A DNA stretch of 64,000 nt from Paracoccus sp. SCSIO 75233 (lineage in GTDB: Bacteria > Pseudomonadota > Alphaproteobacteria > Rhodobacterales > Rhodobacteraceae): positions 1,240,001-1,304,000 of the forward strand of contig NZ_CP115757.1 in the NCBI RefSeq assembly GCF_027912675.1, in the 5' to 3' direction. The notes beneath the pieces were generated by a model. It was not told where the DNA came from. It did no database searches and was given only the letters and a program-made list of their open reading frames with translations. Positions 34,741 through 53,449 of this stretch are shown here, one piece after another; within the stretch, counting starts at the first letter, position 1; every line of letters begins with the position of its first letter. Made by a program: the position numbers and the translations under genes.

Positions 34741-34877
34741 CTCACGCCGTTATGAAATTGCTCAACCCCCTGAAATTGTTGAATATTAAAGAAACTTCGG
34801 GGCTGCAGTCTCCTTTTTTGCTATACAGTTTGCAATACATTTTACGTTACAGTCGGCCCATCAGATAGGGGATCGGC

Positions 34878-36153: not shown

Positions 36154-36341
36154 TTTGCTGCGATGGCACGGGCGCGGCTGATGGCGTCCTGCGCCGTCTC
36201 ATAGGCGGCAAGCTCGCGTTCGATCCGCTCAAAAATCGGCAGATACACCGGATCAGCGATAACCAGTTCAGCGGCCATGCGGTGCATCCATTGCAGGTCT
36301 TCCAGAGTGACCGGGCGCGGTGTGGTTGCGGGCTTGTTCAT
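36135..36341 (-). CDS. Small hypothetical protein
   Basis: 68 residues, starting MNKPATTPRPVTLEDLQWM and predicted to be mostly helical with many charged residues. No known domain is recognised. It converges on the integrase and overlaps its 3' end by 19 bases, so it may be part of the same element. It has no strong ribosome binding site that I can see, and it could be a chance frame. Confidence 0.4.
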   Translation of the reverse strand: MNKPATTPRPVTLEDLQWMHRMAAELVIADPVYLPIFERIERELAAYETAQDAISRARAIAANQKASA

Positions 36342-36359
36342 AATCGGATTTTACCCGCC

Positions 36360-36551
36360 CTGCCCGTGATCGTCTCATGGGTGCTGCTGGCGTGGACCGA
36401 CGACACCTATGGTCGCCCGGCATTCTGGGCGAAACTGCTGATCGTCATCCTGCTCGGCTTTGTCTGGATCGTGCCATTCAAGAAAATCTACACCGGCATC
36501 GGCAAGGGCGAGGAGTGCGCGCGCCTGTTCGGACCTTTTCCGGCGGCGTGA
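36360..36551 (+). pseudogene. DUF2842 gene, 5'-truncated remnant
   Basis: From about 36360 the translation reads LPVIVSWVLLAW, then GRPAFWAKLLIVILLGFVWIVPFKKIYTGIGKGE, which looks like the C-terminal three quarters of the small two-helix membrane protein DUF2842 found in many Rhodobacteraceae. The usual first 15-20 residues are absent; upstream sequence belongs to the island side (antisense of the small hypothetical protein). The reading frame then runs to 36551. I infer a junction between accessory DNA and former backbone near 36345. Confidence 0.6.
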
Positions 36552-36668
36552 TGCTGATCGGCGGGGGCGCTGTGATCGCTGAGGATATGGCGCTTGCCCG
36601 CAGCTATGCGCCGGTTCTGGTGGCGGCGGATGGCGGGCCGGATGCCGCACCATCACTTGGCGCCATGC
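36515..36668 (+). pseudogene. Thiamine pyrophosphokinase (thiN) gene, 3'-truncated remnant
   Basis: From a GTG at 36515 or an ATG at 36551 the translation gives MLIGGGAVIAEDMALARSYAP and VLVAADGGPDAA, ending near LGAMPSH. This matches the N-terminal nucleotide-binding start of thiamine pyrophosphokinases. The next bases (from about 36669) do not continue the family and reach a stop at 36721. The remaining roughly 180 residues are missing from the window. It overlaps the DUF2842 remnant, which suggests the two were adjacent on the ancestral chromosome. Confidence 0.6.
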
Positions 36669-36717
36669 CGTCGCACACCACAAAACGCGGCTTGGAGCGA
36701 AGGAATGGGGTGACAGC

Positions 36718-36822
36718 TTGACCGTAAAGGAATGGCTTGCATCACATGGGCTGGTTCTTGCGGATCGCGACCCGAATATCGGCGAACACCAGGAGGGTCG
36801 CCTACAGGTTACCTTACCCTAG
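36718..36822 (+). other. Short orphan reading frame ending at the IS boundary
   Basis: A TTG-started frame of 34 codons preceded by GGAATGGGG encodes a hydrophilic peptide (TVKEWLASHGLVLADRDPN). It ends exactly where the IS5 element begins; rejoining the flanks across the IS still gives a stop. It could be the 5' end of a gene lost in the rearrangement. I do not recognise it. Confidence 0.25.
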
Positions 36823-37662
36823 GGTCAGGACTCGTTCCCGATCATAACCAGAAGATGACGGTGGCGGCGAGCAGGATTGCAGAGAAGAATGTTTCGGGGC
36901 ATCGGTCGTATCGAGTGGCCACGCGGCGCCAGTCCTTGAGGCGACCGAACATGATCTCGATGCGGTTGCGACGTTTGTAGCGCCGCTTGTCGTATTTGAC
37001 CGCCTTCATGCGGGACTTTCGGCCGGGGATGCAAACCTTTATCCCCTTGTCTTTCAACGCTTCCCGAAACCAATCGGCGTCATAGCCCCTGTCCGCAAGC
37101 ATCCAGCCGGCCTTTGGCAAACTGCCCAGCAGCGCTGCGGCGCCAGTGTAGTCGCTCACTTGCCCGGCCGACATGAGGTACTGGATTGGGCGTCCTTTCG
37201 CATCGGTGACGGCATGCAGTTTCGTGTTCATGCCGCCTTTCGTGCGCCCTATCTGGCGCCCGCGCCCCCCTTTTTTGACCCGCAGGCTTGAGGCCGTGCG
37301 ATGTGCTTTCAGGTAAGTCGCATCGATCATGATCGTCTTGTGTTCGGCACTCTCAGCGGCCAGGCCCATCATGATCCGGGCGAAGACGCCGTTCTCGCTC
37401 CAGCGCTTCCAGCGGTTATAGAGCGTCTTTGCCGGGCCGCATTCCCTCGGCGCATCGCACCATCGCAACCCGTTGCGATTGATGAATATTATTTCACTCA
37501 ACACGCGACGGTCATCAACGCGTGGCTTGCCGTGACTTTTGGGAAAGAACGGTTTCAGACGCGCCATCTGCGCGTCCGTCAGCCAGAAAAGATTGCTCAT
37601 TCATCAGATCTCCTTGCGGAGCCTGAATCACGTCAAACGCACGAAATCAATGGGTCCGGAGC
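36822..37662 (-). mobile_element. IS5-family insertion sequence
   Basis: About 841 bases carrying one transposase gene on the minus strand. Imperfect terminal inverted repeats can be read outside-in as GGGTCAGGACTCGTT on the left and GCTCCGGACCCATT on the right. Each end is flanked by CTA (36819-36821 and 37663-37665), a candidate target duplication of the size used by IS5 relatives. Element length, transposase type and single uninterrupted frame all fit an IS427/IS1031-like member. The direct duplication suggests insertion was simple and not yet reshuffled. Confidence 0.8.
36842..37600 (-). CDS. IS5-family transposase
   Basis: 252 residues in one frame. The N-terminal DUF4096-type domain (LTDAQMARLKPFFPKSHGKPRVDDRRVL) precedes a DDE domain with IMIDATYLKAHRTA, LADRGYDADWFREAL and the C-terminal RRYKRRNRIEIMFGRLKDWRRVATRYDR. 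Relatives often need a programmed frameshift to make full-length protein; here the frame is continuous. All DDE-region landmarks are present, so it is probably active. Confidence 0.92.
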   Translation of the reverse strand: MSNLFWLTDAQMARLKPFFPKSHGKPRVDDRRVLSEIIFINRNGLRWCDAPRECGPAKTLYNRWKRWSENGVFARIMMGLAAESAEHKTIMIDATYLKAHRTASSLRVKKGGRGRQIGRTKGGMNTKLHAVTDAKGRPIQYLMSAGQVSDYTGAAALLGSLPKAGWMLADRGYDADWFREALKDKGIKVCIPGRKSRMKAVKYDKRRYKRRNRIEIMFGRLKDWRRVATRYDRCPETFFSAILLAATVIFWL

Positions 37663-38071: not shown

Positions 38072-40612
38072 TCACGACCCAAGCTTGGGCGGCGCGAAAC
38101 TTGGAGTTGCTTCTTTGACCCGCCTTTGCCACTCGTGCTTCTCCGTCTCCGCAACGGGGCAACTTTCCAAGCACGGTAAAACATCACCATGAAGCTGCGC
38201 CCGCAACTCCGACCAGCGCAATTTAAGCACCTGCCAGTTGTAATCGTCATAGCTGCCTGAAACGATGACGGGGCGAATGTGGATGCGCGGTGCGCAGTCG
38301 TCGCGGCCGTTCGCCTCCCAAGAAGCAAGATCGCTCAGCCAGCGGCTGTTCTTTCGATCAACGCGCCCGATCTGTTGCTCGACGATACCGGGATTCCATT
38401 CCGAATGGAGCAAGACGACGGTCCGGCACGCCTCGTGCAAATTGAGTCCCTCTCGCCCGACCTGAGATTGGGCAATCAGCACCATCGGCCAACTTGACCG
38501 ACGGTTGAAAGACGCCTGGAGCACACGGCGGGTCTGAGGGGCCGTATTCCCGGACATCATGCGGGCGAAGTTGCCTTCCCGACCCGAATAATCGCTTAGA
38601 TAGAAATCGAGGCGGGACTGAAGTGTCTCGTCGTCGTCCTTCTCATCGTCACCAACAAGTTCAGACAGCAGAGACTTGAACGCATTGAGTATTTTTGGGC
38701 CTGTCATGGGATTGCTACGCATGTCTTCGCGCGCCTCGAGCGCCTCGAGAAGCGCGCCGGTATCTGCATTCAGATTCTCGTCATCCGAGGGGCCAAGCAG
38801 ATCGGTCAGAAGTTTAGCATCCTTGTCGCCCCCGGCCAATTCGTCGAACTGGCGGCGATGCTGGGCCAACATCTTTTTGCGCGACGCCTCCCAATCGTCA
38901 TATCTTTTCTTCAGCATCTCGTTTATTGCATGAATACCACCATCAGGCGCTACCAGCTCAGGATCCTGCATCGCGACGTTCATTGCCGGAATGATATAAT
39001 CGTGTAGCTTCGATGCCGGCCAATGCTGTATATCGTCGCGTAAACGCCGTAAGATCTCGCGCGCGTCCAGCAGTTGCGTCAGCGCTTTCATGGGTTTGAT
39101 GAAACGACCGAAAACCAGAACCTTTTCGCCTTTTGCGGCATACTCCTCGATCAGTTGAACGGCTTCAAGAATGGCTGGGTGAGTGTAAATATCGGTCTCC
39201 GTGCCCTTCGCAGCTTGAAGCCAAATCAATTGTTTGTCCCCGTTTTCCTGTTCCTCAGGCAGATCGGCGTCTTCGTCGGTCGCAAATCCCCAGCCAAAGC
39301 CCTTGGCAACGGACAGGCGCGCGCGCTTAACTCTGGGGTCGTCCTGGGGCTGCAACGACAAGGCCTCGGCAGCGCAGAACCGACGCAGCCAATTGCAATC
39401 ATAGCCCACTCCGTTTGGCGAAACAGTCAAGTCCTCAATAACACGGTAGTCGCCATGCTCAGCGCGAAAATTACTGTATTGCGGATCGTGGCGCTTGTCT
39501 CTGCGCAGGACATAGGGACGTAGTGCATTCGCAAAATCCGCCGCTGCGCTTTCAAAACTGCGCGTCAATTCTTCGTCCAGTTCTTCCCGCTGAAGCCGCT
39601 TGACTATGTCGACATAACCTTCGATCGCGCCCGTCATCTCATTCAATTTGTCCGTGTTCGCACCATCATCCCGCCCGGTGACGCGCGCCAATGTGTCAAT
39701 CCATTGCTTTGCGTTCAATTCTACCGGAGTCGCAGTCACCCCAAGCCGGAACGGATCATCGCTTTCCCATGTCACCGGACCGAGAATTCGCGAAAGGCTC
39801 GAATCTTCTCCACGGGCTTTATGCGCTTCGTCAACTACGATCAGATCGAATTCGCCAAGTCCGTATCCGATCAGCGGAAGAATTTTTCCTTTGTAGTCAT
39901 CAGCAGAAAGCCATTTCTGATCGCCTTTCAGATTGCATGAAAGTTTGCGGCTATCAATGATGCCTGCAATCTCCTCGGCAGCGCGCCTGGTCGCGCGAAC
40001 TTTGGGAAGTTCGCTCCAGTAGAAACTATCGCGCATGAGATTCCGGCGGCTACCCGCGACCAGCTTTGCTACATGCGGCAGCAGTTCACGGCGCCAACCA
40101 CCTGCAGGCTCATCCTCTCTGGTCGGAAAGCGCATAGCGGCGAAGCTGTGTGAAATCATCAACACCTGCTCGGCGGCCCAACCGTTTTCAGGCAGCTCGC
40201 GCTGCTGACGGCGATCTCGGAGCCGTTCCTTGTGCTTTTCCCCGCGCATCCCGCCGCGGTCATCGTCGTCGTCATGCATGAAGCCAGCGATGAAGCTGTC
40301 ATAGCTGCGCAGCGGCAACAATGTCTTGTCGTCGGGGTTGAACAGGCGCAGCTCCTTTTGCCACTGAACGCCGAGGCCAGCCGGCAATACGATAGCCGCC
40401 CGCCCTCCCGCTTGACGGACGGCTTCGATCAGCGCCACCGCAATGCGGGTTTTGCCCATGCCAACCTCGTCAGCCAGCAGCATCGCGCGGCGACCAGCAC
40501 GGATGCGCTCAGCCAGTTCTGCAACACTCGCGCGTTGGCCGACGTCTAAGTTCGCAGTTTCGGGGCAGGCATATTCTTGCAGCTTATCGGCAACTTGTGA
40601 CCAGTTTACCAT
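38072..40612 (-). CDS. SF2 DEAH-box helicase (SNF2/RapA-like), last gene of the defence-like operon
   Basis: 846 residues. Motif I is LLADEVGMGKT (GMGKT at 51-55), motif II DEAH at 261-264 (VVDEAHKARGED), motif III GVTATP at 291-296, and motif VI lies near the C-terminus in QQIGRVDRKN, preceded by SQVGREGLNLHEA. This is the order of an SF2 translocase in the SNF2/RapA-like group. A long charged insertion (about 500-690) separates the two RecA lobes. It should couple ATP hydrolysis to movement on DNA or RNA. The ATG overlaps the stop of the PLD-like gene, so it is translated with it. No nuclease domain is seen inside it. Confidence 0.88.
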   Translation of the reverse strand: MVNWSQVADKLQEYACPETANLDVGQRASVAELAERIRAGRRAMLLADEVGMGKTRIAVALIEAVRQAGGRAAIVLPAGLGVQWQKELRLFNPDDKTLLPLRSYDSFIAGFMHDDDDDRGGMRGEKHKERLRDRRQQRELPENGWAAEQVLMISHSFAAMRFPTREDEPAGGWRRELLPHVAKLVAGSRRNLMRDSFYWSELPKVRATRRAAEEIAGIIDSRKLSCNLKGDQKWLSADDYKGKILPLIGYGLGEFDLIVVDEAHKARGEDSSLSRILGPVTWESDDPFRLGVTATPVELNAKQWIDTLARVTGRDDGANTDKLNEMTGAIEGYVDIVKRLQREELDEELTRSFESAAADFANALRPYVLRRDKRHDPQYSNFRAEHGDYRVIEDLTVSPNGVGYDCNWLRRFCAAEALSLQPQDDPRVKRARLSVAKGFGWGFATDEDADLPEEQENGDKQLIWLQAAKGTETDIYTHPAILEAVQLIEEYAAKGEKVLVFGRFIKPMKALTQLLDAREILRRLRDDIQHWPASKLHDYIIPAMNVAMQDPELVAPDGGIHAINEMLKKRYDDWEASRKKMLAQHRRQFDELAGGDKDAKLLTDLLGPSDDENLNADTGALLEALEAREDMRSNPMTGPKILNAFKSLLSELVGDDEKDDDETLQSRLDFYLSDYSGREGNFARMMSGNTAPQTRRVLQASFNRRSSWPMVLIAQSQVGREGLNLHEACRTVVLLHSEWNPGIVEQQIGRVDRKNSRWLSDLASWEANGRDDCAPRIHIRPVIVSGSYDDYNWQVLKLRWSELRAQLHGDVLPCLESCPVAETEKHEWQRRVKEATPSFAPPKLGS

Positions 40613-42405
40613 CAGACTTCCTCCTCATCCCAAAGCGAGGGACAGTCGTTCAATCCCCACTCCTTCGCGATCACGTCAAGAGTATCATTCAGAGGTTTCA
40701 CATCCGCGCCGTCGGGCAACATGCGGGGATCAGCAAGCACAGGCAAAGGGTTGGCTTTGGCCTCACGAAAAAATTCTATAATGGGCCCTTCCTGTTTCGT
40801 AATGGCACACAGTTTCTGTTGCAATTCACGGCACCAACGCGGCCAATCGAGGGCATCGATATTGACCTGAGAGTCACCCAAGCCGACGATCAATTGCATC
40901 ATTCGGCGGATCGGATAGCGAGCGTACTGCGTCGCGGGGGCGATTGTTCCTTCGAACGACGCCTGACTTCCTTCAGGTCCATCATCGGGATAGTCGCTTT
41001 CGGAGGGCTCGGGGAAGGATAGCAGCCCCGCCAGAACATCCTCGACCGTCAGATCCCGTGGGCGTTGCGTCACCAGAACACCGTCCGCAATTACTGGTAG
41101 TTGCCAGCCTGCTTCTGCCAAGGTCACGAATGTCGGGGCAGGCTCTGGCCATTCGCATGGCGTTTCGACGGGATCACCATTCTTGCCGATCACCTTAACC
41201 TTTGTGTCGTTCGGAGCGGATAGCTTGCCGTCCTGCCAGAACAGCCAGGATACAGGTGGCGTGCTCGCAGGTGCCTCGGGATGCGTAAATTCCTCGCCAG
41301 TCGCCAGATCGGTCGGCTCCGCCTCCTTCCAACCGTCAATCGGCAGAAATTCGGCGATGCCTTTTGGGTTAGACCAACTCAAGCCAGCCGGCAAGTCGAT
41401 GACAACGCCGGCCTCCAGGTTACCGCCCTCGTTCGCTGCTTTTTCAAAACCGTTTCGGGTGAGGTTGCCCGACCCGAGATAGATCCGCCCCGAGGTTATT
41501 TTTTCGTCCCCTCCGCAGGCAATCATAGCGAATTTTGCGTGGAGCTGTGCGTCCGGGCCATGCAGCAAGGAGGAGGGCCGTCTCAGCTCCCATCCCGCCT
41601 CTTTCAGTTCCGTGGCCACTCCGGCCAGCCCCTGACAAGATCGTGGATTGAGAAACACAGCCCCTACTGCATCTTCTTTAAGCGAACGCTCCGACACCAG
41701 ACGCTGCCACAACCGATCGATCAGGCCACCATCGGACTTGATCTTCGCATCAAAGTAGCCTGAGCCGAGGACAAGGCTGGTTGCCCGCCACCGTGCGGCC
41801 AGCCGCTCAACGACCTGCGGAAACAGCGCCTTAGTGCGGCTATCGATAAAACGCGACCGCTCGCCCGACGCAGGCAGATCGACTATCGCTGCCCTGAGAC
41901 GGAAATCGGGAAGATACCCATCATACTCACGCTCGATCAGCGAGCAGTCGGCGCGCTCCCGCAGCCAGTCAAACATCGCCCAAGCAGCGCGGATATCGGC
42001 AATATCCTGCGGCTTAGGATTTGAAACATCAACATCAATCGACCAGAACAGGTCTATGCTGTTCGTCAGCGGATCTTGCGTCCAGTTCCCGGTAGTAACC
42101 GCAAGTCGGATCACATATCCCTTTTCATCACGCTTACGGAAGCCCAGCAGCGCGACTTTTGCGTGCAGAAGATTATATCCTCGCTTATCAGGCTTCATCC
42201 ACATCCAAGCGAGTTGTGGCACATCTGATACCGGATTAACTGTCGGATGAATGAACGCTGCGAGAACCGGGCGCGACATATCGCCGGTAAAGCTGCATCG
42301 GATTTCGCGCAAAACCGCTGGCGTGGCGGTAAAACCGGAAAACAGGCCGAAATCACCAAAGCAGCCTTCGGGCGGCGTGAACAGCGTATAAAGAGTTGTG
42401 TTCAT
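40612..42405 (-). CDS. Phospholipase D/Tdp1-like protein with two HxK...N motifs
   Basis: 597 residues from the ATG at 42405; the frame extends 21 codons further but that start lies inside the upstream gene and lacks a ribosome binding site. The protein has two half-sites of a PLD-superfamily active site: H81-A-K83 with N107 (LLHAKVALLG, TTGNWT) and H289-A-K291 with N314 (QLHAKFAMI, YLGSGNLTRNGF). The spacing and the asparagine partner resemble tyrosyl-DNA phosphodiesterase more than the HKD of typical phospholipase D. A covalent phosphohistidine nuclease or DNA-adduct hydrolase is the likely activity; lipid cleavage is less likely. A C-terminal third (about 420-597) has no recognised domain. 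It overlaps both neighbours by one base. Confidence 0.85.
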   Translation of the reverse strand: MNTTLYTLFTPPEGCFGDFGLFSGFTATPAVLREIRCSFTGDMSRPVLAAFIHPTVNPVSDVPQLAWMWMKPDKRGYNLLHAKVALLGFRKRDEKGYVIRLAVTTGNWTQDPLTNSIDLFWSIDVDVSNPKPQDIADIRAAWAMFDWLRERADCSLIEREYDGYLPDFRLRAAIVDLPASGERSRFIDSRTKALFPQVVERLAARWRATSLVLGSGYFDAKIKSDGGLIDRLWQRLVSERSLKEDAVGAVFLNPRSCQGLAGVATELKEAGWELRRPSSLLHGPDAQLHAKFAMIACGGDEKITSGRIYLGSGNLTRNGFEKAANEGGNLEAGVVIDLPAGLSWSNPKGIAEFLPIDGWKEAEPTDLATGEEFTHPEAPASTPPVSWLFWQDGKLSAPNDTKVKVIGKNGDPVETPCEWPEPAPTFVTLAEAGWQLPVIADGVLVTQRPRDLTVEDVLAGLLSFPEPSESDYPDDGPEGSQASFEGTIAPATQYARYPIRRMMQLIVGLGDSQVNIDALDWPRWCRELQQKLCAITKQEGPIIEFFREAKANPLPVLADPRMLPDGADVKPLNDTLDVIAKEWGLNDCPSLWDEEEV

Positions 42406-43616
42406 TACGCGTCTCCTGCGACGGGGCTGCGTGGGTTTCTGCCGGTTCTCAGTTCTTGAGCGAGACAATGCAGATTGTAGAGCCGGGACAACTGCGGCGC
42501 GAAGACATCATTTTCATCGGCAGGCTGTCCGTCATTCTCTCCGGGTCCCACAAGACCTTCACCCGCAGCCGGACCGAGGGTCAGATGACCGTCGCGCAAT
42601 GTGATCACCGAGGCGTCGCGTTTCGCGAGACCTTCCATCAGGTCATGTTTCCGTGAGGACTCAATTTCGGTCAGAAAAGTACAACTGACGGGCTCTTCCG
42701 TGGCGGCAATGCGGGGACCCTTTCTGCGGGCAAGACTTTGCAAATGCTCGATTTCCTGTTCTGCATGCTTGGCTGCGTCATCTGGCGTCAGTCTGACAGA
42801 TTCATTCGCATCGCGCATCTCACGCAGGCGTTTCTCTATCCTATCCAGAACGGCAAGGGCTGCATCGCGCAAGTCCATAAAACCCACCCCGCCGCGAAGA
42901 TCCCGCCAGTGGTCAGGCGCAATGCCGGATAGCGGGCCCTCCCCCTCAAGCTGCTGCGCAGAGGGACCGCGGCCCAAGGCGATCAGATTTCGGCGGCGGG
43001 CGGCGCCTTCGTTACTACCGCCCTGCAACTGAGTGTAGATCAAGTTGCGGACTCCTCTCGGCACTTCAGCCGTCGCCGAGAGCTGTTTTCTGACACTAGA
43101 CAACCCCTTCGGTCTCTTGTCACCCCGCACCCATTTTGCAAGGACATCATGGTGTCCTTTCATCACCGACTGATCGAGCATCCTGCGACCTGCTGGGCCG
43201 ATCCTGAATGCACCATAACGGCCGCCCTCCACGAATCCCAAGGCAGCCAGAGGTTGCACCATGGCCATGCGGATCGGCTGCATGACATAGGTCCCGCGCC
43301 GACTCAGATTCTGAAAGCTCCAATCATCCACATCTTGCAACTTTCGCGCACCGCGCACGCGGGGATCGCTACCGGGACCGATGGCATCACGCATCATCAA
43401 CGCCTCAACCGCATTGCCGACCGGTAACGTGGGGCGCTTCTGTTCCTCGGCGATAGCCACCGCCAGCACCGACCACAGGATCGGCATGGCAAACCACATG
43501 CCGCCCAGCCCGGGCACGGCGCTGTCATTGTGAAAACGGACAGCCGCAGCCAGCCCAAGACTCTGCTGCCGTCGCAGAGAGACGACACTATCGGGCGCAA
43601 GAATACCCCAGTTCAT
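42405..43616 (-). CDS. Unrecognised protein of the defence-like operon
   Basis: 403 residues with no domain I recognise. It begins MNWGILAPDSVVSLRR. One hydrophobic stretch at about residues 38-57 (GGMWFAMPILWSVLAVAIA) could be a buried helix or a membrane segment. The middle holds basic segments (ARRRNLIALGRG) and a predicted helical region around 290-330 with many K, E and R residues. It is fused by short overlaps to the UvrD-like gene (four bases) and the PLD-like gene (one base), so stoichiometric expression with them is likely. It may be a structural or DNA-recognition subunit; this is only an inference from operon membership. Confidence 0.8.
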   Translation of the reverse strand: MNWGILAPDSVVSLRRQQSLGLAAAVRFHNDSAVPGLGGMWFAMPILWSVLAVAIAEEQKRPTLPVGNAVEALMMRDAIGPGSDPRVRGARKLQDVDDWSFQNLSRRGTYVMQPIRMAMVQPLAALGFVEGGRYGAFRIGPAGRRMLDQSVMKGHHDVLAKWVRGDKRPKGLSSVRKQLSATAEVPRGVRNLIYTQLQGGSNEGAARRRNLIALGRGPSAQQLEGEGPLSGIAPDHWRDLRGGVGFMDLRDAALAVLDRIEKRLREMRDANESVRLTPDDAAKHAEQEIEHLQSLARRKGPRIAATEEPVSCTFLTEIESSRKHDLMEGLAKRDASVITLRDGHLTLGPAAGEGLVGPGENDGQPADENDVFAPQLSRLYNLHCLAQELRTGRNPRSPVAGDA

Positions 43617-46600
43617 CGAACAAGCTCCTTTGGTAAATCATCGATAATCTCAAGCAGCCCATGATCGAGCCAGAACAGCCCCAATCCCATCAACGGCAGT
43701 TCCGGGCGCAGTTCCCGCGCCAAACCGGCATATGCCGATAATTGCGGCCAATGGGTCCCCAATCCCACACCCGTACCGCTCGATTTGTGGTCGATCAGCA
43801 GGTAACCTTCGGGCCCGATGGCAAAAAGATCGATACTACCTGCAATCTCGGCCCCCTGGGCACTGCGACCCAAAACCTGGATTTCGCTGTACAGTTCGTT
43901 GTACCCCTCGACGGAAAGCCAGCTTTTCAGCGCGGCTGCGCGCTCGGCCACGCGTTCGAGTGTCGCATCATCCAGCCCGGTCGCGTTGCCTAGCGCAGGT
44001 GCCAGATCAGGGCGTATCAGGTGGCAGCGCAGCGCAAGATGCAAGGCGGTTCCACGGGCCGCCCCCCCCTGCGCAGTAGGCCATGGTGTGCCTATCACCA
44101 CAGTGCGGGACATCGGCACAGGGGTCGCACGCGCGGCTTGCGATGGCCGCGGACGCCACGGCGATAATGCAATGGCTGGCATTGGGTCGACGTGACCGAA
44201 ACGCGGCTTCGCAGTATTACTCTCCGCAACATACTCGGAAAATTCCGCCCACTCAGGCGCAGCCCAAATTACTGCTGGGCAATCCACACCGGAGAGCTGC
44301 AACAATCCATCAGCAAGGTTTGGCTGGCAGGTATCTTCGAAAACATGAAATAGCTTGCTTGCCTCAGGGCGTTCGTCAGTTCGCTGCTTCAGAAAAGCCG
44401 GCCATTCCAGTATCAAACGATCGCGGGCGCGTGTCAGGGCAACGTAGAGCAAATTGCGCGCGTTGGCCTCGAAATCGGAACGACGATCAGCGATGAAACG
44501 CGCCTGTGCCTCCGGCGCAACCATTTCTGGCGTATGTATCAGTGCTGCCGATGCCAACGCCTTCTCCATGTCAAAACCCTGGTCCAGCGCATCAAAGCGC
44601 ACCGAAGTGGTCCCGGGACGCTCCTCAATGCCATGGTCAAATTCCGCCACCACGGTGATCGGCCATTCGCGGCCTTTCGAGGCGTGCCAGGTCACGATCT
44701 CAACCGCCTCGGCGCTGTTGCCCGAAGGATCGGGGTGCCGATCGAAGTCACGCTCAACCAATCGGGCTTCCAGCCAGCCAAGAAACACTTTTGCGGTGTT
44801 GCCGTGAAATCCAGACGCCGCCTTGAGATCGCGATGCGCATTCTCAAAATCCTCGGCTTCCGCCTCAAGCCGCAGAAGGTCGGCGCGCTCCTGTGCCGTA
44901 TCCGGCTGACGATCGGCCCAAAGGCGCAACCCAGCAGCATCCAGAACCAGGTCAAGCGCTGCGCTGACCGGCATTCCCGGCAGCCGGTCCGACAGGGCCG
45001 CCAGTCGCACGAGAACTTTGTCCCCCGCCAGCGAACCCTCCATCTGAGCCGCTAATGCTTCATTTAATCCCAGAGGATCCGGTCCAAGAGTCCGCAAGAG
45101 CAGTGCAGAATGGATATCAGACGGATTTGCGGCATAGGCCAGCGCTGCGCGAGCAGTCAGAATTGCAGGGCTATTCAGCCATCCATCGTCACTTATGCGT
45201 ACGGGAACATTTCGCCAACGCAGTTCTTCAGCATACCGGGCGGCGGTCGTGTGGCGGCACACGAGCAGAGCGATATCCGAAGGCCTGGCGGGACGAGACG
45301 CACCGCTGTAGCGATCTGTGATAACTTCCTCGTCAATCAAAATACGGGCAATGCGCTCGGCAACATGTTCCTGTGGTTTCGACGCAGTTCGTACCCCACG
45401 CGACTTGGTCGTATAGAGAATTTCCAATGCCGCTCCGACCACATCATCTCGGGTCGGTTCAAGTGCGTGGTAGCCTTTCCCAAACAGGCCCTTACCGAGC
45501 GCATTGACAAATTGCATCACTGCTGGCGTCGACCGCCAGTTGCGGTCCAGCGGTTGCACGGCCGCTGGATTTGCTTTTGCCAAGGCCTGCGACAAGCGCG
45601 GATCGGCGCCCTGAAACCCCATGATTGATTGCTTGATATCACCCACCAGCAGGCAGCGCGGCGCGCGCGATGCAAGCTGCCAGAGAAGTGCAAACTGCAC
45701 CGGGTTGGTATCCTGAAACTCATCAATGATCACACAGTCTATCTCATCCAACACGGCGCTACGCACGACCGCTTTCTCGCGCAGCAACCTTTCGGCCCCC
45801 GTGATCATGTCCGCGAAGTCGATGAGCCCGAGGGCTTTTTTGCGTGCCTCGTAAGCAGTCATGACCTCTTGCGCACATGCGATAAGGCAACTCAGATGCA
45901 ATTTCGCATCAGCAAGCGGGCCGGGATGTGAGGGCAATACGTCAGCCGCCTTCATGATCCGCTTGGCGAGATCATCGTAGCCGGCGGGCGTTTTGGTCCG
46001 GAGATTTGAGACAAAAAGCCTGCGCAATGCCTGCCAAGCAGCCCAGTCACTATCTAGCAGTTTCGGCTTCATGTCGATCTGCCTGAAAAGAGCGAGATCT
46101 TTTTCCAACGCCTCGCATGGCCCTTTTGCGGTGACAGTGCCCATACCCCCATCAGGGAACTCGGACAGCATCTTCGAAATTGCTTTTACTAGCGCTCTTC
46201 GTGCAGCAGCGGCGTTTTTTAGGACCGTGCCGTAAACGGCGTCCAGCTGCGCCTCAGCCGGCGGAATGAGGCCGGGATCAAGCCCAGAATCCCCGAGCCC
46301 GCGCAACAGGTCGATCAGCCCAATCACTCGCGTGCGCAATGCTGCCTCAGCCGTTTCTCCTGTCACGACGTTCGCATTGTAACCAAAACGCCCCGGATCT
46401 GCCTTGATCGGATCAAGCGCGCGTGCGTGGGCCAGCGCCTGACGGATCAGTACGTCGCGTTCAGCATCGCCCAAATGGCGGGGCTGTGGTGAGGACCCCG
46501 CCGCGAACGCATGTTCCGTCAGAAGCCGCAGGCCCAGGCTGTGGATGGTCGAGACATAGGCCCGTTCGACCGCCATCGCTTCGTTCACGAGGTCATCTGC

Positions 46601-46780
46601 CAGCAAAGCCGCCCTGATCCGTTCGCGCAACTCGCCAGCGGCAGCCTCGGTAAATGTCACTGCCAGAATACGCTCGGGCCGCACAGTGCCACGACTGACC
46701 CAATCTGCCAACTGAGTCTTGATGCGGTGCGTCTTGCCCGCGCCGGCACCGGCTGGCACGATCACGAGTCCCTTATCCAT
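43613..46780 (-). CDS. UvrD-family helicase with C-terminal RecB-like nuclease (AddA-like)
   Basis: 1055 residues from the ATG at 46780, placed nine bases behind GAGGA; an ATG two codons earlier overlaps the upstream stop (ATGA) and is possible. SF1A motifs are present: PAGAGAGKTHR (motif I), LAVTFTEAAAGELRERI (Ia), IIDEFQDTNPVQF (II), VGDIKQSIMGFQGADP (III), NWRSTPAVMQ (IV), TWHASKGREWPITVV (V) and LLYVALTRARDRL (VI). The C-terminal nuclease has GSIDLF near 981, LLIDHKSS with D997 and K999, and QLSAYAGLA, the PD-(D/E)XK signature of AddA/RecB. It resembles AddA in layout but is strongly diverged and lies in an accessory island. Confidence 0.9.
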   Translation of the reverse strand: MDKGLVIVPAGAGAGKTHRIKTQLADWVSRGTVRPERILAVTFTEAAAGELRERIRAALLADDLVNEAMAVERAYVSTIHSLGLRLLTEHAFAAGSSPQPRHLGDAERDVLIRQALAHARALDPIKADPGRFGYNANVVTGETAEAALRTRVIGLIDLLRGLGDSGLDPGLIPPAEAQLDAVYGTVLKNAAAARRALVKAISKMLSEFPDGGMGTVTAKGPCEALEKDLALFRQIDMKPKLLDSDWAAWQALRRLFVSNLRTKTPAGYDDLAKRIMKAADVLPSHPGPLADAKLHLSCLIACAQEVMTAYEARKKALGLIDFADMITGAERLLREKAVVRSAVLDEIDCVIIDEFQDTNPVQFALLWQLASRAPRCLLVGDIKQSIMGFQGADPRLSQALAKANPAAVQPLDRNWRSTPAVMQFVNALGKGLFGKGYHALEPTRDDVVGAALEILYTTKSRGVRTASKPQEHVAERIARILIDEEVITDRYSGASRPARPSDIALLVCRHTTAARYAEELRWRNVPVRISDDGWLNSPAILTARAALAYAANPSDIHSALLLRTLGPDPLGLNEALAAQMEGSLAGDKVLVRLAALSDRLPGMPVSAALDLVLDAAGLRLWADRQPDTAQERADLLRLEAEAEDFENAHRDLKAASGFHGNTAKVFLGWLEARLVERDFDRHPDPSGNSAEAVEIVTWHASKGREWPITVVAEFDHGIEERPGTTSVRFDALDQGFDMEKALASAALIHTPEMVAPEAQARFIADRRSDFEANARNLLYVALTRARDRLILEWPAFLKQRTDERPEASKLFHVFEDTCQPNLADGLLQLSGVDCPAVIWAAPEWAEFSEYVAESNTAKPRFGHVDPMPAIALSPWRPRPSQAARATPVPMSRTVVIGTPWPTAQGGAARGTALHLALRCHLIRPDLAPALGNATGLDDATLERVAERAAALKSWLSVEGYNELYSEIQVLGRSAQGAEIAGSIDLFAIGPEGYLLIDHKSSGTGVGLGTHWPQLSAYAGLARELRPELPLMGLGLFWLDHGLLEIIDDLPKELVR

Positions 46781-46782
46781 GA

Positions 46783-49317
46783 TCATTCTTCCTCGTGCAT
46801 GAAGGCGCCGACGAGGGGCGACCCTGCTGTGAGTGCGTAGGGGGTGAACCCACATTCTTTTCTGAAAAACTCGGCATCTGCGGTGGTGTTCAGAACGACC
46901 AGCCTCTTTTTTAGTTCAGCCAATCTTTCCTTCAGCATCGCCATCGCGCCGTCATTGACCTCATCACCCATATCGCGCGCGGGCGATCCTTCCGGAAGTT
47001 CAAGCCCTGAAGTCAGAAGTCCACCGTCGTTCATCAGGTAATAGCCTATGGCGGTCTCGCGTCCGATCAGCGCGTCCATTCCATCACCCTCCCGCCTGAT
47101 CGGGCGAACGATCATGTCGCGATACAGCCCGGCTTGCAGATCCCAGCCAGCCGCCATCCGCCGCTGTCGCCCGCTCGTCCCGCTTTTCTTGTGATCAATT
47201 ACGATCAGCGCACCATCGGGCAGTTCCAGAATAGCATCGGCTTTGCCACGAATCTGGATGCCGAGAACCTTGCCGGCGAGCCATAGCTCATTACCAACGA
47301 TTGTAGCGCCGATTTCCAGCAGATGCTGGCGCCAGAGCAGCGCGGCGCCAAGAATTTCGCGTTCCAGCCCGTTTCGCTCCATCTCCCATGACGGGCTCCG
47401 TAAGAAGCCGGCGTGACGTGACAATGCTCTGTCGTAGGCTTCGGCGACTGCCGTTTTCAGCGTCTCTGCCTCGGGGATCTCCGCGCCTGCGGGGAAGCTT
47501 TGCTCGAATACATCATGGGCAATGCTGCCCTTGGCCATGATATCCAGATCCTCGGGCAGCCAGACCATATCCTCGGCCCCGATTTCACCCAGTAACCAGG
47601 CTAGAGGGCTGACCAGCAACACCTCCAGCCGAGAGGGCGATTGAGGTTTCGCCGTGCCGTCATCTTCGCGGCGTAGTGCGAGCAGGTCATGTTGGCCAAA
47701 GTTCAACACCTCGGGCCGCGTCAATTCAGGTGGCAGGGGCGGCGGATAGTGATATGGAACCGGCCAATCATCCGGCGCGGCTGCAGAAACATCCGTGACG
47801 AGGTCGACGGCATCATCAACGCCATCAATCGCGCGTGCGATCAACGACAATCCCACGGAAGGGGCCAGTCGCCCGCCAGTTAGATCGCGCGACGGAGTCA
47901 GGAACGTGACGCTGTCGGAAACGGCCTGAAGCTGCTCGTCAAACGAGGCTACGCTCTGTGCCAGAGCCTCGGTACGGCCGCGCAAATGAAGTCCGGTCGC
48001 CGCGCGGATCGCGGTTATCTCGCTGTCCAAGAACAAGGGGTTGGCGCGCGGTCGGGTAGGATAGAACCCGTCGGTGAAGTCCGCAACAATGAGGTGTCGG
48101 CAGGACCGCCATGGGCTTTCATACGCCGACCAGAAGCTGACGCCCTCAAGGTTACGCTGCGTTTCTGCCTCGCGATCCGGATCAATCCGGATGCCGCGTA
48201 GGATTGTCTCCCAATCCGGCGGGCCATCACCGGGCGGAATGAGCAGGCGCTTGCGCAGCAAATCACCCTGCGAGAGCTCGCTACAAATCCGATCGATAAG
48301 GAAACGCAGTTGCGCAAGACTGCCGGCCGGACGGCGGACATCGTCCCACAGCGCCTTATGTTCGGGTATCAGTATTTCCCCACGGAAATCGCCCGCCATC
48401 AGACTTTCCGCCAGGTCGCGCCCGGTCTGAGGCACCCATGGCATGAGCGGCGAGAGCGCGAGGCTGGCAAGTACCATCGTTGGTGTCGGTGCGTGTTTGG
48501 CCAGCACCAATTGAAATGCTGTCTCGCCAATCAGGTCTCGTTCGGCCGGAAGAGCCGGCAGCCCTGATAACGGCACACCCTGCTCGTCGAAGGCACGTGC
48601 GAGGTGGCGTGTATCCGCCGCGAGCACCGCGATATCACGCGCCTCGACCCCGGATTTGATAAGCGCGCGGGCGTGGGCCGCAGCGAACTCGGCACAGGCG
48701 GCCGCGTCGCGCAGACCATAAAACGCGAGGCTTGCGTCCGGCAAACCAGAAGCGACTTTTGCCGCTGTGACGCCGCCTTGTAGCGCATGAAGTCGCGTGT
48801 TCGGCGTCGCCAGGCTGTTTCGCGGCGTGGCCGCGACCGTCCCGAACTCAGCCTTCAGTCGCGCATATAGTGCCCCCATCGACGCTGGTGCCAGTGGGTC
48901 GAGCGAGCCTTCAACCACCGGCAGCGCCGAAAGAAGCCGTCCGTGAGGAAGGCTCAATACGTGGCGCACAGGTGCCAGTCCCTCGGGCAGGGCATCACCC
49001 AGTTCGCGCCACAAAGCGATCAGCGCCGCAAGATGCCGTACTGCCCGGCTGTCTGGCGAAACAGGCAGGTTTGGGGGGGTCAGGTCAGCTGTCGCCAGCA
49101 CAAGATCCTCCAGCGCAGCGGTCACCGCGGCAGTCGTCTCTATTGGCGCATTGACCAGGCTTTCGCCCCAGACTGCATGCTCAAGGTTGCTTGCGATCAC
49201 TCGTCCCGGCATCCACTCGACCGGCCGGGGCGCGAGCGACAATTCGGCCAGAACCGTATCTGACAGGCGATAGTTCAGCTTCGAGAGAGGGTCCGTAACG
49301 AGAAAGGGATAGAACAT
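46783..49317 (-). CDS. PD-(D/E)XK nuclease family protein (AddB-like), first gene of the defence-like operon
   Basis: 844 residues. The N-terminal three quarters looks like the degenerate helicase fold of AddB (for example LIVADFTDGFYPTRPRANPLFLD), with no P-loop that I can see. The nuclease part starts near residue 595 (SPSRLEVLLVSPLAWLL) and has GSIAHDVFEQSFP, GKAD with D694, IDHKKSG with D708 and K710, and LQAGLYRDM. These fit the RecB-like motif order. An AddB iron-sulfur cysteine set is not visible. It probably pairs with the adjacent UvrD-like protein to form a DNA end-processing machine. The WYL regulator lies 233 bases upstream on the same strand. Confidence 0.86.
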   Translation of the reverse strand: MFYPFLVTDPLSKLNYRLSDTVLAELSLAPRPVEWMPGRVIASNLEHAVWGESLVNAPIETTAAVTAALEDLVLATADLTPPNLPVSPDSRAVRHLAALIALWRELGDALPEGLAPVRHVLSLPHGRLLSALPVVEGSLDPLAPASMGALYARLKAEFGTVAATPRNSLATPNTRLHALQGGVTAAKVASGLPDASLAFYGLRDAAACAEFAAAHARALIKSGVEARDIAVLAADTRHLARAFDEQGVPLSGLPALPAERDLIGETAFQLVLAKHAPTPTMVLASLALSPLMPWVPQTGRDLAESLMAGDFRGEILIPEHKALWDDVRRPAGSLAQLRFLIDRICSELSQGDLLRKRLLIPPGDGPPDWETILRGIRIDPDREAETQRNLEGVSFWSAYESPWRSCRHLIVADFTDGFYPTRPRANPLFLDSEITAIRAATGLHLRGRTEALAQSVASFDEQLQAVSDSVTFLTPSRDLTGGRLAPSVGLSLIARAIDGVDDAVDLVTDVSAAAPDDWPVPYHYPPPLPPELTRPEVLNFGQHDLLALRREDDGTAKPQSPSRLEVLLVSPLAWLLGEIGAEDMVWLPEDLDIMAKGSIAHDVFEQSFPAGAEIPEAETLKTAVAEAYDRALSRHAGFLRSPSWEMERNGLEREILGAALLWRQHLLEIGATIVGNELWLAGKVLGIQIRGKADAILELPDGALIVIDHKKSGTSGRQRRMAAGWDLQAGLYRDMIVRPIRREGDGMDALIGRETAIGYYLMNDGGLLTSGLELPEGSPARDMGDEVNDGAMAMLKERLAELKKRLVVLNTTADAEFFRKECGFTPYALTAGSPLVGAFMHEEE

Positions 49318-49550
49318 GAGAGACCTGACAGAAAACGGGATAGCTCGGATTTATCGGATGCACTGCTGGAGCATCACCTACCCTGATGGGAGCGACCAAC
49401 GATCCCGTCCGAGCTTGATCAAACTCGATCAACAAGCTGCAGTATGGCGCGCTACTGCTGACTATGGCTGGTTCGAGCAACGATGACCCTTCTTTTACTT
49501 CACTGGTGATACTATCGGTGCGATGCGTCAATTTCGGACGCATCATCTGG
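49318..49550 (-). promoter_or_regulatory. Leader of the defence-like operon with two inverted repeats
   Basis: The 233 bases between the WYL gene and the AddB-like gene hold a perfect 8-bp inverted repeat, GATGCGTC / GACGCATC, around AATTTCG at 49522-49544, and a 6-bp one, TTGATC / GATCAA, around AAACTC at 49415-49432. Neither is followed by a T-tract on the minus strand, so operator or mRNA-structure roles are more likely than simple termination. No ORF is supported. Confidence 0.5.
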
Positions 49551-50495
49551 TCAATTGGTGACCGGGTGATAGCACGCCTCGACCTTGTCGCCCCATCGGG
49601 CCAGATACCATTCCATCTCCTGCCGACCACAGGCGCGGAAGCGCACCAACAATGCCCCATCGGCGAGCAGCTCTGCATGTTGTCGAGGATGAAAGACGAA
49701 GCCCGCAGCCTCTTCCGCCACCTCGGGGGCAAAGTGCCATTCAACATCGACCGGATCATCCCTCCACATGCCGAAGCCCTCCGCCAGCCATTCCTGAACA
49801 TCAAATTCTTCAGGTCGGACAAACACCTCATTGAGCGCCGACACCCTCTCGAAACCCGTCAGCGCAAACAATCGTAGGTCATCCTGATACTCGCTATGGG
49901 CAAGCAGATATTGCCTACCCTGACCGAACAGCACGGCGATCGGACCCAACCTTGTGTTGCGTGACAACTTGCCGGTGCCGCGCGCGCGATGATCCGCGGA
50001 AATCATCACCCCTGCCAAAATTGCTTCGCGCAACGCTTTCAGGATTTCGGGCGCGATTTTTTCGCGTGGGCCGGGGCGGAATGCGACGCCATCCGCCAAA
50101 AGCTGGGCCTCAAGATCAGCGGCGATGCGACGACGACGGTCATGACTGAACATTGCCTGAACCTTGGCAAGAAGGCTCTCCAGGGCTTCCGCACTCGCCT
50201 CGTCGCCTTCCCGCCGGGTGATGGCGGCAGCACGCTGAGCCGCGCTTAATTCGTCCAGAGTTGGTTCGGACATCTTGCCCAACGTACCAGGTGGGAAACG
50301 CCAGGATTTGCGCCCGCCTTCGGCTGTAAGTTCTTCGATCGCGGGAAAGGCGCGCAACAACGCATCCCGCATCCTTTCGGCCGTGCGGCGCGACACACCA
50401 TATTCACGTTCGATATCTGTGAGCGATATTCCTTCGGCTGAACCCTGCATCCTGACGGCGAGCCGCAGAAGATCTTCCTGACGAGAATAACGCAT
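49551..50495 (-). CDS. WYL-domain transcriptional regulator (YafY-like)
   Basis: 314 residues from the ATG at 50495 with a GGAGG ribosome binding site. The N-terminal winged helix (ISLTDIEREYGVSRRTAERMRDALLRAFP) is followed by a WYL-type domain (RLGPIAVLFGQGRQYLLAHSEYQDDLRLFALTGFERV). A C-terminal WCX-like region follows, with HFAPEVAEEA near 245. WYL proteins often control defence genes and can bind single-stranded DNA or nucleotides. Its position upstream and in line with the five-gene operon makes it the probable regulator, possibly through the palindromes in 49318-49550. Confidence 0.9.
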   Translation of the reverse strand: MRYSRQEDLLRLAVRMQGSAEGISLTDIEREYGVSRRTAERMRDALLRAFPAIEELTAEGGRKSWRFPPGTLGKMSEPTLDELSAAQRAAAITRREGDEASAEALESLLAKVQAMFSHDRRRRIAADLEAQLLADGVAFRPGPREKIAPEILKALREAILAGVMISADHRARGTGKLSRNTRLGPIAVLFGQGRQYLLAHSEYQDDLRLFALTGFERVSALNEVFVRPEEFDVQEWLAEGFGMWRDDPVDVEWHFAPEVAEEAAGFVFHPRQHAELLADGALLVRFRACGRQEMEWYLARWGDKVEACYHPVTN

Positions 50496-50734
50496 TATGC
50501 CTCCGGCCCGTTTTTGCAAGTTTGCTATTGACGAAAGCAACGTCAACGGCAAAACCGCCATCTGACTGCGTCGACGCAGGGTTATGCCTCCTAACTCAAC
50601 CCAATAATGATACCGGCGCTCACAACTTCGTCCGGAGCGTGCAACCGAAAAAAGCGATTACATCTTGGCAGGAGCACGCGTCACGTGCAGGCTGGGGCGG
50701 CTTCACGCCCCCTTTCCACTTCGAAGGATTACGC

Positions 50735-51295
50735 TTGGCACATTTTTTCACCGCCGACACTCATTTCGCAGATGATCCGGTGCGCCGCTTCTTTGACCGG
50801 CCCTTCACCTCGATTGAGGCGATGGATGCCGCGATTGTTGATCGGGCACGCATGGTCAGAGCCGATGACGATCTGTGGATTCTCGGAGATTTTGCCGCAT
50901 GCGAGACTGATGCTGGGCGTTTGGCCGCGCAGGCCGCCTTTGACGCGCTGCCGGGGCGCAAACACCTGGTGCGCGGGAACCACGACCCCGAGTGGCTGGT
51001 TCAAGCATTGCCGTGGACTTCAATTCACGATCTGGTTGAGATAAGTATCGGAGAACTGCGCTTCGTTCTCTGCCATTATCCGCTGGTTACATGGAATAAT
51101 GCCCGATCAGGGACGATCCAGCTTTTTGGCCATGTGCATAATCGCTGGCGCGGGGGAGAGGGTCAGTTGAATGTTGGTGTCGACCAATGGGATTTCACCC
51201 CCATAACCCCGGATCAAGCCGAGCTTGAAGCTCTGATACTACCGCAGTCCCGCTTGCATCAGATTGCGGAGGGCATTGAAACCACTGTTGAATGA
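50735..51295 (+). CDS. Calcineurin-like metallophosphoesterase, TTG start
   Basis: 186 residues from a TTG at 50735, chosen because GAAGGA sits six bases upstream and the family N-terminus (AHFFTADTHFAD) begins there; the frame is open to 50522 but no ATG or GTG with a binding site fits. Metal-ligand motifs are DTHFAD, GDFAA, GNHDPEW, CHYPLV and FGHVHNR. This small single-domain type is common in phages and accessory regions. Substrates can be cyclic nucleotides, nucleotides, DNA or phosphoproteins. It is divergent from the WYL gene (239 bases between) and could share its promoter region. Confidence 0.85.
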   Translation: MAHFFTADTHFADDPVRRFFDRPFTSIEAMDAAIVDRARMVRADDDLWILGDFAACETDAGRLAAQAAFDALPGRKHLVRGNHDPEWLVQALPWTSIHDLVEISIGELRFVLCHYPLVTWNNARSGTIQLFGHVHNRWRGGEGQLNVGVDQWDFTPITPDQAELEALILPQSRLHQIAEGIETTVE

Positions 51296-51439: not shown

Positions 51440-52801
51440 TTAACGACCGAAGCCGATGGGCCTTGGTCGACCCTCCTTCGCCTCAACTTCACGGCGCAAC
51501 TCCGCAAAGATCGTGGCAGCATCGCTTTGACCGAGCGCACGCATCCTACGGGCGACATTGGCAAAATCGCCTACAGATAGCCTGTCGAGCAACTGGATAT
51601 CGGGATGCACCGGTGCGTCGAAATGGGTGCCCCATGCCAACGGCAACTGATCACCGAGCAAACAATCAAAGTGGATGCGGAACGTGAAGCGGCGCTGGGT
51701 CGCAGGATCGAGGTTGTCGGCCAGGTTGGTTGTGCAGACAAATGGCAGAGGATGGCTTTCCATCCAAGTCAGCATCTCGTTAACCAGACTGACCTCCCAT
51801 TGCCGCGAGGCATTGCGCCGGTCAGCCAGCAAGCTGTCGGCCTCGTCGAAGATCAGCAGCGCCCTTTCCGCCCGCGCGTCGGCAAAGGCGCGCGCAATGG
51901 CCTTCTCGTTTTCGCCAACCCACATGGACAGAAGATCAGACGCACGCTTCTCGATCACCGGCCACCCCTTCCGTCTGGCCAGATGGCGGGCCCAGGCGCT
52001 CTTGCCGGTCCCGGCCGGGCCATAGAGGCAGAAGGAAACCCGTGCTGCTGAATCGGCGTCCCCAAGCTTAGCCTCCAGCAAGGAAAGGTCAGTGTCTGTA
52101 GTGGCCAAAGCGGCATCCCACCCAGCCTCATCACAATGTTGCGGTATCGGTTCGACGCCACCGTTGGTCAGCTTGACAGAAGCCCCTAGCACTTGGGCAA
52201 ACGTCCTAGCCCCACCGCCACAGTAGCGGGCCACGCGCATTGCGTCAGACACCATCGCCGGGGGCTGGTCATGGATCTCGGCCAGGGCCATCAAAGTGTC
52301 CGCTTGATCCGACAACTGATGGCGATCCGCGAGCTTTCGCCAAATGCGTTTACGCATTCGGTCGGACGGCGAACGCATCTCGACCGAAAAAGTCATCCGG
52401 CGGAGCAATGCAGGATCGCAGGCATAAATGGAATTCGTCGTCCAAAGGGTCGGCACGGGATTGGTTTCGAGCAGCCGGTTCGCAAAAACCTTGGACATCC
52501 GTTCCCGTCGGAACAACCGCGACATAGTGCCACCGAACAGATCCTCCATTTCATCAAGCAGCAGCACGGTATCGCGTCGCGACGATAGCATCCGTCCGGC
52601 AATGCCGAGCTCAGCCAGCCGCTCGCCTCGCGATGGCTCTTCGCCACTACAGTCAGACTCACCAATGGCGTGCAGCTTAGCCCCCAATTCGCCGGCAAGC
52701 ACCTTGCAGAATTCGGTTTTCCCAGTACCAGGCGCACCGTACAGCAGGATGTTGACGCCCGCCGTGCCATTTCTAAGCGCAGTGGCCAGCAGATCGCGCA
52801 T
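51440..52801 (-). CDS. Tandem AAA+ ATPase, C-terminal part of a TGA-split gene
   Basis: 453 residues carrying two AAA+ modules. The first has GAPGTGKT at 22-29 and LLLDEMEDLF (D83, E84); the second has GPAGTGKS at 261-268 and LIFDEADSLL (D319, E320), with sensor-type TTN motifs (WTTNS, CTTNL) and the RRFTFRIHF region. The upstream codons are in frame with the gene 52868-53449, separated by a single TGA plus 22 codons. Relatives are, to my reading, single proteins of about 670 residues. The in-frame ATG at 52801 could start this half by itself; its ribosome binding site is poor. Confidence 0.8.
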   Translation of the reverse strand: MRDLLATALRNGTAGVNILLYGAPGTGKTEFCKVLAGELGAKLHAIGESDCSGEEPSRGERLAELGIAGRMLSSRRDTVLLLDEMEDLFGGTMSRLFRRERMSKVFANRLLETNPVPTLWTTNSIYACDPALLRRMTFSVEMRSPSDRMRKRIWRKLADRHQLSDQADTLMALAEIHDQPPAMVSDAMRVARYCGGGARTFAQVLGASVKLTNGGVEPIPQHCDEAGWDAALATTDTDLSLLEAKLGDADSAARVSFCLYGPAGTGKSAWARHLARRKGWPVIEKRASDLLSMWVGENEKAIARAFADARAERALLIFDEADSLLADRRNASRQWEVSLVNEMLTWMESHPLPFVCTTNLADNLDPATQRRFTFRIHFDCLLGDQLPLAWGTHFDAPVHPDIQLLDRLSVGDFANVARRMRALGQSDAATIFAELRREVEAKEGRPRPIGFGR

Positions 52802-52867: not shown

Positions 52868-53449
52868 TCACATTAGAGCAACCAGCTCTTCAACATCATC
52901 GACCTCCGCCAGCATTGCATTCGCCAGTCTCGGCGGAACAAGATAGGAAATGCTCTGGTCAACCCAGTGGCGATCTTCGCACTGCAACAGGCCGAAAGCT
53001 CGTAATCGTGCTTGCGGCCGCAGCGCTGCCCGGGCTTCTCCTTGCTCGGCACCGGCGAACTGCCCGAGGAGGAATGACGTTGTCACTTCATTTGTCCGCA
53101 TTGCCTGATCGACCACATGCTCGAACATCTCGAAAATTCGGTAGTTAGCAAAGAATTCAAGGATCCGCGCCTCGAGTTCCGTCAGGCCAAAATGACGTCC
53201 GATCCGCATTGCGTTTACGCGTACCATGCTCCCGTCGCCATAGCTGGCGTCTTTGCAGAGATCGTCCAGCAGACTTCGTATCTGCACCCACCAATCCAAC
53301 TCGGGCCGCGCCTGCGGCCGCTCGGGACATTCCACATCGGTCAGATATTCAATCCAGCCGGGCAATTCCTTGGCGATTTTGCTGCTGGGACCGAAGCGTT
53401 CTGCCAAAGAGGAGACGAGGCCAAGCGCAAGGTGTTTTTCATAGGTCAT
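52868..53449 (-). CDS. N-terminal part of the same AAA+ protein, ends at an in-frame TGA
   Basis: 193 residues from an ATG at 53449 with GGAGAG upstream. It is helical and looks like the winged-helix-containing N-terminal domain that precedes tandem AAA+ modules in this alphaproteobacterial family (GRHFGLTELEARILEFFANYRIF, YLVPPRLANAML). The stop TGA (52868-52870) is followed by C, and 22 open codons lead in the same frame to the ATPase part. It is therefore either a nonsense mutation, a true two-protein arrangement or a read-through site. Confidence 0.75.
   Translation of the reverse strand: MTYEKHLALGLVSSLAERFGPSSKIAKELPGWIEYLTDVECPERPQARPELDWWVQIRSLLDDLCKDASYGDGSMVRVNAMRIGRHFGLTELEARILEFFANYRIFEMFEHVVDQAMRTNEVTTSFLLGQFAGAEQGEARAALRPQARLRAFGLLQCEDRHWVDQSISYLVPPRLANAMLAEVDDVEELVALM

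Follow-up and report, generated by a model that had tools for sequence, protein, structure and literature searches.

A mobile locus with a WYL regulator in Paracoccus: a putative and apparently undescribed form of Azaca-like defence whose effector would be AddAB-like

Five tightly packed genes for nucleases, helicases and one further protein in the genome of Paracoccus sp. SCSIO 75233 raise the question of whether they form a defence system and, if so, of what kind. They lie in a stretch of 64,000 nucleotides (contig NZ_CP115757.1, positions 1,240,001 to 1,304,000), which is called the window here and whose coordinates are used below. Read from the sequence, they are minus-strand open reading frames (ORFs) spanning 38072–49317 with no internal stops. 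In order, they encode an AddB-like nuclease (P0001, 46783–49317), an AddA-like helicase (P0002, 43613–46780), a protein referred to as g3 (P0003, 42405–43616), a phospholipase D (PLD)-superfamily enzyme (P0004, 40612–42405) and a superfamily 2 (SF2) helicase (P0005, 38072–40612), of 844, 1055, 403, 597 and 846 residues. AddB and AddA are separated by a gap of 2 bases, the AddA and g3 frames overlap by 4 bases, and the g3/PLD and PLD/helicase frames overlap by 1 base each; the AddA start is uncertain because an alternative in-frame ATG lies upstream (46855), which would overlap AddB by 73 bases. A WYL-domain transcription regulator (P0006, 336 residues, 49551–50561, minus strand, Pfam WYL and WCX) is located 233 bases upstream of AddB. 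The coupled five-gene unit and its in-line WYL regulator, both described in the initial annotation, are thus borne out. We consider it fairly probable that this is a mobile, WYL-regulated anti-invader locus working like Azaca, in which the trio of g3, PLD enzyme and helicase engages invading DNA and the AddAB-like pair destroys it. On this reading the locus would be a variant of Azaca-like defence, apparently not described before, in which the effector is AddAB-like.

A profile search of genome contigs with g3 found 27 related loci, and in every one of them the PLD and helicase genes directly follow g3. An AddA-like gene is present in the surrounding stretch in 21 of the 27, two of these 21 stretches starting inside AddA. 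Among 398 sampled genomes of the phylum, g3 and the PLD gene each occur in two, the same two, side by side. This shared presence and the invariant adjacency of the trio indicate that the association is not due to chance. Class-wide, one of 385 genomes was positive, namely this one, at a rate that derives from the first few candidates per genome and may be an underestimate. Three of 61 relatives (37 of them in the genus, this genome counted in both figures) were positive, as were seven of 72,556 plasmids, four of these predicted to be conjugative; a profile search of a protein database returned at least 588 g3 homologues. Its sporadic spread, its plasmid carriers and the conjugation genes that adjoin it mark the locus as mobile. 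The interpretation in the initial annotation is partly right: the set recurs, with the trio together in all 27 loci and the AddA-like gene in most, but it consists of two separable modules.

These two modules, the trio and the AddAB-like pair, are joined by an outer layer consisting of an AAA ATPase and the WYL regulator. Plasmids of Pantoea and Desulfosarcina carry a tandem-AAA ATPase, a WYL gene and the trio without AddAB. Those of Leisingera and Fuscovulum show the order AAA-WYL-ADP-ribosylglycohydrolase-AddB-AddA-trio, the Fuscovulum plasmid alone with an extra gene (HEPN per RefSeq) before AddB. In three loci (L005, L060 and L062) the pair lies behind the trio. Identities to the window differ between modules: in L059 they are 63, 77, 68 and 71% for AAA, WYL, AddB and AddA and 37, 28 and 36% for the trio, and in L005, L060 and L062 they are 58–64% for the trio, 38–39% for AddB and 48–49% for AddA (L062: 59, 63 and 64% for the trio, 39 and 48% for AddB and AddA). 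These values indicate that the AddAB-like pair swaps independently of the trio yet remains beside it. In a locus from the same family (L049, 19–12451), WYL-AddB-AddA stands directly before ZacA-ZacB-ZacC of Azaca proper, with AddB and AddA 39% and 45% identical to those of the window. Because this pair runs straight into ZacABC, AddAB-like pairs accompany both kinds of PLD-helicase core. The strongest indication that AddAB and core act jointly is this persistence: the pair keeps its place ahead of a PLD-helicase core although the core itself has been exchanged, in one case for Azaca proper. In L028 and L030, two loci in which AddAB was not found, the trio adjoins a gene for a DUF2779 protein, Cas4-like by PADLOC, which may take the place of the pair.

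The ADP-ribosylglycohydrolase of these loci is fused to a dual-specificity-phosphatase-like domain (L008, 2549–4117, and relatives). In L008–L011 and L061 it is placed between WYL and AddB. It precedes AddB in L006 and, at a distance of one gene, in L059, and in L024 and L062 it precedes the trio; the window contains no match to it. L062, a 75-kb IMG/VR contig filed as viral, reads AAA-WYL-ADP-ribosylglycohydrolase-trio-AddB-AddA.

The catalytic residues of both modules are well conserved. P0001 contains a PD-(D/E)XK nuclease domain (Pfam PDDEXK_1, 3.7e-14, residues 560–741) and has no PADLOC match; its active-site motifs A-D and (I/V)DHK are conserved in 14/14 aligned AddB-like proteins. P0002 is a UvrD/RecB-type superfamily 1 (SF1) helicase (Pfam UvrD-helicase, 4.1e-46) with a C-terminal nuclease motif. 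Walker A and DEFQDTN are present in 15/15 AddA-like proteins and the D-x-K nuclease motif in all 13 that reach that far, and GajB and other UvrD models are among the best 25 of its 52 PADLOC matches. P0002 is not the housekeeping AddA, as it scores 145.1 bits with NCBIfam addA_alphas against a cut-off of 860.75; a separate canonical AddA of the same genome scores 1118.8 bits, and P0002 aligns with it in pieces, the main one 26% identical.

The first subunit of the trio, g3, matches nothing in Pfam or PADLOC; its predicted fold is weakly winged-helix-like, and the protein is probably DNA-binding. P0004 has a PLD match below the Pfam threshold, with no Tdp1 family among its Pfam matches. Two HxK...N motifs lacking the Asp, as in Tdp1, are found in all 17 aligned PLD proteins. 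Motif 1 (H81-A-K83 ... T-G-N107; 42085–42165, minus strand) has H81, K83, G88 and N107 invariant, G88 occupying the aspartate position of the HKD consensus. Motif 2 (H289-A-K291 ... G-S-G-N314; 41464–41541, minus strand) has H289, K291 and N314 invariant, and residue 296, which corresponds to the HKD aspartate, is Ala in 15 and Gly in two. The nearest solved fold to the predicted PLD structure is also Tdp1. P0005 is a helicase or translocase of the SNF2/RapA/DrmD type (Pfam ResIII, Helicase_C and SNF2-rel_dom) with DEAHK and EQQIGRVDR in 15/15 homologues and GMGKT in 14/15, the exception (L058) having a short N-terminus as annotated. Its PADLOC matches lie at 50–71 bits (PDC-M27C 71.2, DrmD 56.9, BrxHI 54.3 and ZacC 49.9).

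The outer layer includes two genes upstream on the same strand that were overlooked in the earlier reading. The first encodes a 453-residue tandem AAA ATPase (51440–52801, minus strand; Pfam AAA over two stretches) with two intact P-loop modules; Walker A, Walker B and the RR of both modules are invariant in 9/9 homologues. The best solved relatives of an AAA homologue by sequence are VCP-like ATPase/Cdc48 (4.4e-28), a likeness at the family level. The second, u193 (193 residues, 52868–53449, minus strand), encodes on its own what in relatives is the N-terminal domain of the AAA protein; it is 50% identical to the ORF preceding AAA in Leisingera, and its counterpart is fused to AAA in L059 and L065. 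A WYL match occurs in the surrounding stretch in 11 of the 27 loci, in six of seven further trio loci (L057–L063) and in the window; for AAA the counts are nine of 27 and again six of seven. In a genome of the same genus (L065/L066), u-AAA-WYL lies beside a 248-residue protein with a PDC-M15A match and a 195-residue protein, with HerA, SIR2 and ISP restriction genes close by. AAA-WYL apparently serves more than one set of neighbours.

A role in defence is suggested by defence-type neighbours (PglZ-BrxL, Cas4-like DUF2779, AIPR and methylase/Res) and by rarity and mobile carriers, namely sporadic genomes, plasmids and copies linked to BREX in the vicinity of trb genes. PglZ-BrxL immediately precedes AddB in eight of the 27 loci. 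ORF order is identical in the four BREX-linked genomes whose upstream stretch was read, and by ORF sizes and starts all four carry closely similar copies of a single mobile element and therefore represent few independent events. In the one scanned (L053), WYL, BrxA, BrxB, BrxC and PglX lie upstream, with the conjugation genes TrbI and TrbL beyond; we take this BREX set to be of type I by its gene content. The main text of a BREX survey contains no mention of AddA, AddB, UvrD, RecB or Azaca (PMC12839542). In L029, AIPR and methylase/Res genes are found ∼3.6 kb upstream. One flank of the locus in the window (34651–37600) holds tRNA-Ser(gct), an IS4/5-type transposase and an ORF that resembles tyrosine integrases by weak Pfam matches; the G+C content of the locus is 0.55–0.61, below most of its flanks.

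The order of events in such a locus can be sketched; we infer the defence role, each mechanistic step and its place in the order, the target or substrate and the sensing signal. The WYL protein would repress expression until infection or DNA damage. Then g3 and the SF2 translocase would engage invading DNA, and the Tdp1-like enzyme would attack it, acting as a nuclease or hydrolysing an end that is blocked or linked to protein. Once an end is exposed, the AddAB-like pair would load there and degrade the DNA; the Cdc48-like AAA protein, where present, would remodel the target or strip its protein. The initial annotation had suggested a DNA end-processing defence complex: a recurrent defence-like set with no PADLOC system agrees in part with this, in two modules rather than one and with a function that is still putative.

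Several observations weigh against this account. The fold matches of the g3 model are at background level. AddAB is not seen in six of the 27 loci, one of which (L023) offers just 3.3 kb upstream, and the 27 are not 27 independent cases because eight share much the same BREX-linked arrangement. Three of the four Azaca loci have no AddA/AddB match within 16 kb. In Paracoccus haematequi (L025; L068, 5550–6748) g3 is split over two reading frames, and this copy may for that reason be inactive or misassembled. At the thresholds applied, neither Pfam nor PADLOC matches the L059 gene that RefSeq labels HEPN. For the outer layer, a calcineurin-like metallophosphoesterase gene in opposite orientation (50522–51295, or about 50724–51273, plus strand; Pfam Metallophos just under the cut-off) splits AAA from WYL in the window. 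A congener has a gene of 79% DNA identity next to its AAA-WYL locus, and the phosphoesterase is probably outside the system. That congener, in which g3 was not found, carries u-AAA-WYL, and in another genome the stretch read holds an AAA gene but neither WYL nor trio. AAA-WYL is therefore not specific to the system; it is a shared outer layer that may be dispensable here, since the phosphoesterase gene intervenes and the congener pairs AAA-WYL with other genes.

The alternative that survives best, though we regard it as rather unlikely, is a plain Azaca subtype, in which g3 is a ZacA too diverged to be recognised or its replacement, the trio carries all activity, and the system could do without AddAB, AAA and WYL as mere accessories. 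Profile–profile comparison of PLD with ZacB (92%, E 6e-7, score 62.6, both motifs aligned) exceeds 20 column shuffles (12.8–22.2) and the reversed profile (20.8), which indicates homology at the profile level. The order unknown-PLD-SF2 helicase is also common to the locus and four ZacB-defined loci, and the arrangement in L049, with WYL-AddB-AddA ahead of ZacABC, would equally suit such a subtype. However, g3 (127 sequences) compared with ZacA/DUF6361 (120 sequences) by hhalign gives 17.9, which falls within 20 shuffles (13.6–23.0; reversed 20.0), DUF6361 is not among the Pfam matches of 33 g3 proteins, and P0004 reaches 33.9 bits with the PADLOC ZacB model versus 391–556 for four clear ZacB proteins. 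Azaca as defined was rejected, as ZacA is not detectable in the locus by sequence profile. In addition, the pair re-associates across independent swaps, which argues that AddAB has a role.

Within the favoured account of an Azaca-like anti-invader locus, a more specific version is attractive given that the PLD enzyme has a Tdp1-like fold and a partner resembling Cdc48: an 'uncap and shred' immunity against DNA ends sealed by covalent protein, such as a plasmid relaxase or the terminal protein of a linear phage. The Cdc48-like unfoldase would strip the protein, the Tdp1-like enzyme would cut the remaining tyrosyl-DNA bond and the AddAB-like pair would degrade the freed end. We hold this version to be unlikely. 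Tdp1-like enzymes are mainly familiar from eukaryotic repair, and a Cdc48-like unfoldase, a Tdp1-like enzyme, a translocase and AddAB recall parts of eukaryotic crosslink repair. The same parts could form a DNA–protein-crosslink repair cassette of the element or host that clears blocked ends and has no anti-invader role. The Tdp1-like fold, the VCP-like AAA and the plasmids among the carriers would fit; however, the WYL genes, the BREX, Cas4-like and AIPR neighbours, the rarity, the relationship of PLD to the defence protein ZacB, and an AAA that is unseen in many loci and separated in the window make it quite improbable. That the trio and the AddAB-like genes are two independent, non-cooperating neighbours is highly improbable: the Pantoea and Desulfosarcina trios and a distinct AddAB-like pair after a Shango set in this genome speak for it, but the frames overlap in the window and either module re-associates repeatedly after exchange.

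That Shango set, complete by PADLOC (SngA, SngB and SngC), lies elsewhere in the genome (contig C6; L051, 12000–31000). It leads into a second AddB-like/AddA-like pair, whose frames overlap, and then a ResIII-type helicase. This pair is distinct from, and more distant than, the others. A helicase of 1112 residues behind the Shango-AddAB set (L051, 11814–15152) has an 86% identical counterpart beside an Azaca locus of another genome (L050, 12606–15947).

If the favoured account is correct, the locus represents a defence architecture that combines a Tdp1-like enzyme, a DNA motor and a shredder of the RecBCD/AddAB type. AddAB-like pairs would then be portable effectors on different cores (the trio, Azaca proper and the BREX-bearing element, with a distant pair on Shango), and the question would arise whether bacteria attack protein-capped DNA ends in defence.

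No name for the gene set was found in the literature searched, and PADLOC assigns no system to the region, giving generic or weak matches only, in line with the initial annotation that it matches no named system. Gabija was rejected: P0001–P0006 have no OLD or TOPRIM Pfam match, and P0002 matches GajB as a UvrD helicase. DISARM resembles the locus in its SNF2-type helicase (DrmD models are among the better P0005 matches) and PLD protein; it was rejected because no DUF1998 or methylase Pfam match occurs in P0001–P0006 and seven window neighbours (for one neighbour, among the best 25 of 28 matches). BREX is adjacent through PglZ-BrxL in eight of the 27 loci and precedes the five genes as a complete set in L053. 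For the locus in the window BREX was rejected: its genome has no PglZ match, and the five genes are also found together where BREX is lacking. CoCoNuT extensions likewise carry tandem Cdc48-type AAA proteins within a defence locus; these CDC48-like ATPases are reported to keep Walker motifs in the C-terminal ATPase only (PMC11090510), whereas both ATPases of the AAA protein here keep them. Housekeeping AddAB shares the combination of an SF1 helicase-nuclease and a nuclease partner, but the AddA-like protein misses the addA_alphas cut-off and the canonical AddA stands apart. Tdp1 shares the fold of the PLD model and the HKN-type motifs; the PLD protein is nevertheless ∼10% identical to it, with some 220 extra C-terminal residues, and its activity is putative. 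Azaca differs in a first gene, ZacA/DUF6361, that g3 does not detectably match, and in having no AAA match in any of four loci; it shares with the locus the gene order, PLD-ZacB homology with both HxK...N motifs and, in one of the four, WYL-AddB-AddA in front of ZacABC.

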